This document shows positions 7,185 to 9,251 of a stretch of DNA of 33,929 bases, in pieces (the first letter of the stretch is position 1; each line of letters starts with the position of its first letter). A model generated the notes under the pieces. That model had not been told where the DNA came from and did not search any database. It saw nothing but the letters and a program-made list of their open reading frames with translations. The translations under genes were made by a program, and so were the position numbers. The DNA comes from an uncultured Burkholderiales bacterium (lineage in GTDB: Bacteria; Pseudomonadota; Gammaproteobacteria; Burkholderiales; Burkholderiaceae_C), in the NCBI GenBank assembly GCA_903961095.1, contig CAJCDH010000028.1, positions 1-33,929 of the forward strand, read 5' to 3'.

Positions 7185-8033
7185 TTATGCGCTCACAATC
7201 CAACCTTCAAGGGCATCAAACTCGGGCAAGCCATATGGCCCCCTAGAAGACCCATCTTCCTGCTGCTGCTGCGCCCACGCCGCTTGCACCATGCACAGCA
7301 CTGCGTCCAATGAATCACCCGATCCGTCTAGCAACAAATTGTCGTGCTGTGCAGAACTGAGTTTGAGCCTCAGATTCAAACGGGTTTGGCCCAAATCGAG
7401 CGCATGGAGAATGTCTTTGCGTGCCAACCACCTGTCTGGGGTTTGTTTCGATCGGTCATCACTTTTGTAGCTGCGCTGCTTCACGATCTCTCTGGCCAGC
7501 AAGCCAGGGTAAGCCTCTAAGGCCACACGATCGGGATGGCCCTCGCACATGCCGGGTAAAGTCCAATGGGCCGCCCGCAACAATGGCACGCCAGCGTGCA
7601 TCATCCACGCAACGGGAGGATTAACCCATTTCATCGAAGGGCTAGAACCTGCGGGCAAGTCAGTTGCGCGATGTGCAAACTTAGACCCAACTGGACGAGC
7701 GTCGCAGAACTCTTTGAAAAATTGACGCAAGTTTTCGCGTGAATAAGAGGCATACAGATCCATGCACTCTGGCCATGTGAGGGGCCATTGCATGTGCTCA
7801 ACCCATTGGCGGGGTAGGCCAAAAGGCAAGTCAAAACCGCCTACACAAGGCACACCCATTGGCGCAGGCGCATTTAAAAATAAATGAAAGGCTTCGAGAG
7901 TTTCAAATTTTGCCAAGCGCTCCAGCTTGACGACACCGCGCTGCTTGGCGCCTATCGCAAGCACAATGGGTTTGCGCTTATTCGGGCTGCTGGAAAAATC
8001 GCAGCCGATCAAACAAGTATCAAGCACGTCCAA
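7185..8033 (-). CDS. DUF429 domain-containing protein
   Basis: CLIGCDFSSSPNKRKPIVLAIG, GGFDLPFGLPRQW and VALEAYPGLLAR match DUF429-type motifs with conserved acidic residues. Overlaps the BLUF ORF by 14 nt. Confidence 0.75.
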   Translation of the reverse strand: MDVLDTCLIGCDFSSSPNKRKPIVLAIGAKQRGVVKLERLAKFETLEAFHLFLNAPAPMGVPCVGGFDLPFGLPRQWVEHMQWPLTWPECMDLYASYSRENLRQFFKEFCDARPVGSKFAHRATDLPAGSSPSMKWVNPPVAWMMHAGVPLLRAAHWTLPGMCEGHPDRVALEAYPGLLAREIVKQRSYKSDDRSKQTPDRWLARKDILHALDLGQTRLNLRLKLSSAQHDNLLLDGSGDSLDAVLCMVQAAWAQQQQEDGSSRGPYGLPEFDALEGWIVSA

Positions 8034-8442
8034 TGATGGAGGCAGTGGCCATGAGTTCTTCGAGCAAGGCCAAAGACACTACACCCGATACGCTGTAGGG
8101 GTCAAGCTCAGCACGTTCGGAATATTTCAGCAAGATGCTGGTATTGACACGTGACACATCGACTTGGCCCATGGTCCAACCACTGAAGCGACGTTGCAAT
8201 ATTTCTTCGTAGTGCAACAGCATCACTTGCTTGTGCCGGGCATCTTTTTGGATGTGCCCATACAGCTCGCTGACAGCTTCACGTCCACCTTCGATGGCCT
8301 GTAAAAAGATGTCGCCGCTATAAACCAAAATACCAGTAATACCAGTGCTGGGATTGAATTGTCTGGATTGAGCCAAAATAGATTCAATGACAGTGGGCTG
8401 AGGATCGACTGCGCGGCTGGCATAAAGTAAACGAACCAACAT
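8020..8442 (-). CDS. BLUF-domain blue-light photoreceptor, short (140 aa)
   Basis: MLVRLLYASRAV...QSRQFNPSTGITGILVYSGDIFLQAIEGGREAVSELYGHIQKDARHKQVMLLHYEEILQRRFSGWTMGQVD. Tyr7, Asn30, Gln48, Trp89 and Met91 line up with the BLUF flavin-site residues; the Gln-Trp-Met spacing equals AppA Q63/W104/M106. Confidence 0.92.
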   Translation of the reverse strand: MLVRLLYASRAVDPQPTVIESILAQSRQFNPSTGITGILVYSGDIFLQAIEGGREAVSELYGHIQKDARHKQVMLLHYEEILQRRFSGWTMGQVDVSRVNTSILLKYSERAELDPYSVSGVVSLALLEELMATASIIGRA

Positions 8443-8444
8443 GA

Positions 8445-9158
8445 TCAGGCCTTTCTAGGAATCAACGACAAGAATTCACGGCGCAAGTTGGCATCTTTTA
8501 AGAATACTCCGCGCATGACAGAGTTGATCATTTTGCTGTCCATGTCTTTGACACCGCGCCAGCCCATGCAGAAGTGGCTGGCCTCCATGACGATTGCCAA
8601 ACCATCGGGTTGTGTTTTTCGCTGAATCAAATCAGCCAACTGCACCACAGCTTCCTCTTGAATTTGGGGGCGACCCATAATCCATTCGGCCAGCCTAGCG
8701 TATTTGGAAAGACCAATGACATTGGTGTGCTCGTTGGGTAAGACGCCAATCCAAATTTGACCAATGACAGGGCACAGGTGGTGGCTACAAGCACTGCGCA
8801 CCGTGATAGGGCCCACAATCATGAGTTCATTCAGGTGCTCGGCGTTGGGGAATTCTGTGACTTCAGGGCTTTCGGTATAGCGGCCTTTGAAAACTTCTTT
8901 CAAATACATTTTGGCCACTCGACGAGCGGTGTCTTGGGTGTTGTGATCGTTTTCAGTATCAATCACCATGCTGTCTAAAACGGTCTGCATTTTTTCAGCC
9001 ACTTCGTCCAACATTTGATCCAACTCGCCAGGCTGGATAAATTGAGAAATGTTGTCGTTGGCGTTGAATCGTTTGCGAGCAGCCAAAATACGCTCGCGGA
9101 TCTTCACGGAAACTGGTGTTCCGATATCTTCAACCGGCAAGTGAGTGGGAGCCTTCAT
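8445..9158 (-). CDS. folE: GTP cyclohydrolase I (divergent subtype)
   Basis: Zinc-site motif RSACSHHLCPVIGQ, IGLSKYARLAEWIMGRPQIQEE, and ASHFCMGWRGVKD. Confidence 0.92.
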   Translation of the reverse strand: MKAPTHLPVEDIGTPVSVKIRERILAARKRFNANDNISQFIQPGELDQMLDEVAEKMQTVLDSMVIDTENDHNTQDTARRVAKMYLKEVFKGRYTESPEVTEFPNAEHLNELMIVGPITVRSACSHHLCPVIGQIWIGVLPNEHTNVIGLSKYARLAEWIMGRPQIQEEAVVQLADLIQRKTQPDGLAIVMEASHFCMGWRGVKDMDSKMINSVMRGVFLKDANLRREFLSLIPRKA

Positions 9159-9251
9159 AAGCTTTTAATCAGTATTGTCAAACCTTGATCGTACCAGTGA
9201 ATGAAGCCACTTCACTCAATACGGACATGTGCAAAATAGGTACAAATTAAT

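Follow-up and report, generated by a model that had tools for sequence, protein, structure and literature searches.

A conserved folE–BLUF gene pair in Burkholderiales and a candidate metabolic partner for a PixD-type blue-light sensor

A gene for a short BLUF-type blue-light sensor directly follows folE, the gene for GTP cyclohydrolase I, in genomes across the order Burkholderiales, and the two genes are almost certainly functionally linked. The best explanation for the gene order and sequence comparisons is that folE and BLUF make up a two-gene unit which is transcribed and inherited together, and that the gene following them is a bystander. The pair was analysed in a 33,929-nucleotide stretch of DNA (the window; contig CAJCDH010000028.1 of assembly GCA_903961095.1) from an uncultured Burkholderiales bacterium. 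The relevant features are as follows.

9188-9196, minus strand: extended -10 promoter element TGGTACGAT, 38 nt before the folE ATG
8445-9158, minus strand: folE, 237 amino acids, Pfam GTP_cyclohydroI (PF01227, E=1.8e-44), upstream gene of the pair
8443-8444, minus strand: gap of 2 nt between folE and BLUF, junction TGA-TC-ATG
8020-8442, minus strand: BLUF gene, 140 amino acids, PF04940 (E=4.9e-29), PixD-type short blue-light sensor
7185-8033, minus strand: DUF429-like gene, remote DUF429 member, a lineage neighbour outside the conserved unit

The original prediction described a tightly packed folE-BLUF-DUF429 operon. The sequence confirmed the packing of the first two genes, with the folE stop at 8447-8445 and the BLUF ATG at 8442-8440. 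The 14-nt overlap claimed between BLUF and the DUF429-like gene holds if translation of the latter starts at the TTG at 8033, and is uncertain because it requires that start; a start at the GTG at 8027 would leave an overlap of 8 nt, a start at the TTG at 8012 would leave none, and most relatives lack an overlap.

To survey the family, 201 genomes were searched with each window protein and the positions of the matches were compared; counts from this survey refer to the matches listed, about the 150 best for each protein. BLUF lay directly downstream of folE and on the same strand for 133 of the 150 best FolE matches listed (132 genomes), at a median distance of 12 nt from the end of the FolE alignment. 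In the other direction, folE adjoined 122 of the 123 best BLUF matches listed whose genome's folE was also listed. The order was surveyed in 150 genomes, where FolE separated cleanly into a subfamily scoring 312-529 bits (28 genes) and canonical enzymes scoring at most 111 bits (47 genes). BLUF was found behind 17 of the 28 subfamily genes and behind none of the 47 canonical ones, and one further subfamily pair, the eighteenth, was split by contig ends. The folE-linked BLUFs scored at least 112 bits and the remaining BLUFs, the split pair excepted, at most 90 bits. In 10 of the 28 order-level genomes the subfamily FolE stood without BLUF, indicating that FolE does not need BLUF.

In a class-level sample a single family from outside the order, represented by two genomes (G496 and G607), carried the FolE subfamily, in both cases with BLUF directly behind it. 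The sequences of these two genomes (rows L095 and L096) nest among Burkholderiales in both the FolE and the BLUF trees, with moderate branch support, a placement that fits joint transfer of folE and BLUF. When named GTDB loci were located with a BLUF profile, folE was directly upstream in 79 of 80; at the eightieth, folE is partly masked and also reads as adjacent to BLUF. Genera carrying the pair include Caldimonas, Sphaerotilus, Leptothrix, Aquabacterium, Rhodoferax, Polaromonas, Curvibacter, Vogesella, Chitinimonas and Uliginosibacterium, and the pairing was found in the majority of Comamonadaceae as well as in many further beta-proteobacteria. The adjacency of folE and BLUF is far beyond chance and, rather than being limited to a few close relatives of the window, it is order-wide. 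Candidatus Dactylopiibacterium carminicum (L239), an insect-associated bacterium, also keeps the pair, an unexpected setting for a light sensor.

Near relatives partly share a wider block of genes, comprising NUDIX, EEP, PLD, folE, BLUF, DUF429, SULP, ThiF and CTP. The deeper branches were represented by a deep clade of the window's own family, eight further Burkholderiales families and the family outside the order. Here folE-BLUF was intact in 23 of 23 BLUF-bearing loci, whereas a search of these loci for eight other window genes found none of them. Some deep clades have a local synteny of their own; across clades only folE-BLUF recurs, and no regulator gene recurred beside the pair among the neighbours analysed. 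In one clade (L171-L175) a queC-like gene lies a few genes downstream of the pair; queC belongs to the queuosine pathway, a consumer of the FolE product.

DUF429 had been proposed as part of the BLUF unit and as a possible light output, and here the original prediction did not hold. Among the best matches listed in the family survey, only 43 of 150 genomes had DUF429 within 150 nt of BLUF; in 41 it lay farther downstream (mostly by about 1 kb, and often behind an EamA-like gene), and in 66 it was away from BLUF. Many genomes carry DUF429 or BLUF without the other, and the folE-BLUF loci of other families lack DUF429. In BLUF-less loci the gene behind folE is DUF429, one encoding an EamA-like transporter or some other gene, with DUF429 directly behind folE in three genomes; no BLUF remnants were detected behind folE in the BLUF-less genomes. 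DUF429 is a bystander with lineage-limited synteny, outside the conserved folE-BLUF unit.

The window DUF429-like protein itself scored 16.8 bits against PF04250, below the Pfam gathering cut-off of 23. Of 23 aligned orthologues, 16 matched DUF429 at E<=0.01, the best of them at E=4e-7, and the protein can therefore reasonably be called a remote member of the family. A predicted single-chain model was confident (pLDDT 89.6) and gave no match in the PDB below E=0.001; terminase nucleases and RuvC were weak matches, a hint of an RNase-H-like fold. Invariant acidic residues in the protein include D12, D68, E173, D236 and D240.

Among 87 distinct pairs, 0-72 nt separated the FolE stop codon from the BLUF start codon in 86, and 193 nt in the other. 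The BLUF start codon was ATG in 86 of the 87, and no FolE-BLUF fusion was present among them. Of 171 loci, 90 carry an extended -10 sequence (TGnTAnnAT) upstream of folE, where 3.5 would be expected; upstream of BLUF the count was only 2 of 155. The simplest reading of these sequences is a single transcript from a promoter before folE, and the conserved element looks like an ordinary extended -10. In some relatives only 6-8 nt separate its end from the start codon of folE, and the folE mRNA may therefore be leaderless or near-leaderless, and translated as such, in those bacteria.

The window BLUF protein scored 100.7 bits against PF04940 (cut-off 25). Tyr7, Asn30, Gln48, Trp89 and Met91 are all at the positions originally claimed for them, and these photochemical residues are kept in 87 of 87 folE-linked BLUFs. 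All 87 proteins are 138-143 amino acids long and consist of a stand-alone domain with the PixD C-terminal cap. The best PDB sequence matches to the window BLUF were Tll0078 and Slr1694, in an alignment running through the cap and including the C-terminal LKYS motif. A template-free AlphaFold2 model gave TM scores of 0.89-0.90 to PixD chains in the best matches and fitted them to 1.3-1.5 A over 138 residues; its fit to BlsA was poorer (2.5-3.0 A). By sequence and predicted structure, the window BLUF is of the PixD type over its full length. In the linked BLUFs residues 93-140 were conserved at 3.15 bits and the sensor domain at 3.19 bits, compared with 1.20 and 2.15 bits in 46 other BLUFs; since the 46 others are more diverse, the fairer measure is the ratio within each set. 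The window BLUF has Val40 and Gln83 at positions that are Cys and Glu in 83 of the 87 linked proteins. A second BLUF in the same genome (L002:1480-3275, G000:C96) is PixD-like and not linked to folE; a gene for a MerR-type HTH protein comes next, an arrangement resembling that of E. coli BluF-BluR.

FolE from the window scored 151.7 bits against PF01227 (cut-off 27) and fell under every NCBIfam FolE cut-off (TIGR00063, 153.1 against 181.6; NF006824, 145.9 against 202). Since these scores lie below the equivalog cut-offs, we describe the window protein and its Burkholderiales relatives, on sequence comparison, as a divergent GTP cyclohydrolase I subfamily clearly apart from canonical FolE. The window protein aligns with solved GTP cyclohydrolases, and C124, H126, H127, S151, K152, Q167, E168, H195 and C197 are conserved across the 102 FolE sequences compared; we take these Cys/His/His, Ser-Lys, Gln-Glu, His and Cys residues to have zinc-binding and catalytic roles. 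The window folE was the sole FolE-type match in this metagenome-assembled genome (90% complete), in which FolE2 was not found and FolK is present. FolE is therefore probably the housekeeping enzyme. A signature of BLUF loss in the FolE sequences of BLUF-less genomes was also considered; it was weak and confounded by deep lineages, and none was clear. The FolE and BLUF trees correlate (r=0.81), as shared descent alone would predict.

The order-wide conservation, short spacing, single promoter element, intact photochemical core and constrained C-terminal cap strongly support the link between BLUF and folE and suggest that BLUF has a fixed partner. No gene but folE accompanies BLUF throughout, and a light-dependent contact with FolE is therefore favoured. 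The BLUF protein would bind flavin, change shape in blue light and relay the light signal to FolE through this contact, and light would thereby tune the production of dihydroneopterin triphosphate, which is used for folate and other pterins. We put direct action of BLUF on FolE at about an even chance; the evidence predicts neither more nor less pterin in the light. In crystals, PixD forms two stacked pentamers (PMC5899715). GTP cyclohydrolase I is a decamer of D5 symmetry, with GFRP pentamers as caps along its five-fold axes (PMC7750480). The matching five-fold symmetry of PixD and GTP cyclohydrolase I suggests, as speculation, a similar cap, in which a five-fold BLUF ring would stack on the faces of the FolE decamer and light would alter the contact. 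That a PixD-type ring caps FolE in this way, as a light-sensing counterpart of GFRP setting folate and pterin synthesis across Burkholderiales, is a tentative analogy that we consider doubtful.

Other explanations for the pairing assign BLUF a different output or input. BLUF could use the folE promoter, with folE giving steady expression only, and signal to a PixE-like, MerR-like or other partner encoded elsewhere. The BLUF gene lacks a promoter element of its own, and the short BLUFs PixD, BlsA and BluF act on separate proteins that are not always neighbours (PMC5899715, and partly general knowledge). However, many promoters could supply mere expression, whereas the pairing with folE outlasts all other change in the neighbourhood and also occurs as a pair outside the order; we regard a partner encoded elsewhere as possible, though somewhat unlikely. 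BLUF might also control the expression of folE through a transcription or translation factor, for which the light induction of folE by PmSB-LOV and PmlR2, a LitR-type regulator, in Pseudomonas is a precedent (PMC9758184). With no regulator gene recurring beside the pair, and a promoter element that resembles an ordinary extended -10, such control seems unlikely here.

A further reading is that the input to BLUF is not light but the state of flavin or redox, and that BLUF balances the use of GTP by the pterin and riboflavin pathways. It is general knowledge that BLUF binds flavin and that FolE and riboflavin synthesis compete for GTP, but flavin binding alone would not demand the residues of the hydrogen-bond switch, which are invariant in all 87 linked proteins, and we think this reading very unlikely. 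As to the DUF429 protein, it is encoded immediately downstream of BLUF in the window and close by in the 43 genomes noted above, but the PLD, EEP and NUDIX genes have equal lineage-limited synteny. On the neighbourhood survey we reject DUF429 as output partner, and would give that role hardly any chance.

PixD (Slr1694, Tll0078) is, like the proteins studied here, a short BLUF ending in this type of C-terminal cap with its LKYS motif; it signals to a separate protein, PixE, as is proposed here for the linked BLUFs. PixE is a response-regulator-like phototaxis protein, however, whereas the constant neighbour in Burkholderiales is a metabolic enzyme. In the proposed analogy with animal GTP cyclohydrolase I, a separate five-fold-symmetric protein regulates the decameric enzyme (PMC7750480); GFRP differs in sensing phenylalanine and BH4, and its likeness to BLUF is one of analogy, with no claim of homology. 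In Pseudomonas, PmSB-LOV and PmlR2 together with the folM-folE-folX operon likewise tie a short flavin-based blue-light receptor to folE (PMC9758184), but the receptor is a LOV rather than a BLUF protein, acts through a DNA-binding LitR regulator and is not in a two-gene unit with folE. No LOV receptor or LitR/CarH regulator was found beside folE in a Pfam scan of ten window proteins, and none recurs beside the pair. BlsA of Acinetobacter and BluF-BluR of E. coli are also examples of BLUF signalling through separate proteins in non-phototrophs, their partners, unlike FolE, being transcription regulators.

No earlier description of the folE-BLUF pair was found in the open-access literature searched. 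PixD-type BLUF proteins and GTP cyclohydrolase I are already known kinds; what is new is their pairing, its depth and an enzyme as candidate output. To our knowledge, the output partners of short BLUF proteins have been established in only a few cases. Here conservation in more than 130 genomes singles out one candidate, a core-pathway enzyme and not a transcription factor. So long-conserved a pairing suggests that light controls a core vitamin pathway. If FolE is indeed the partner, it would be the first metabolic enzyme we know of under the control of a separate BLUF protein, and this would explain the use of a blue-light sensor by many non-phototrophic freshwater and soil bacteria. As only two small proteins are involved, the question is directly testable. 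Light-linked chemistry includes folates, pterins and the folate antenna of photolyases, and a photolyase-family protein is present in this genome.
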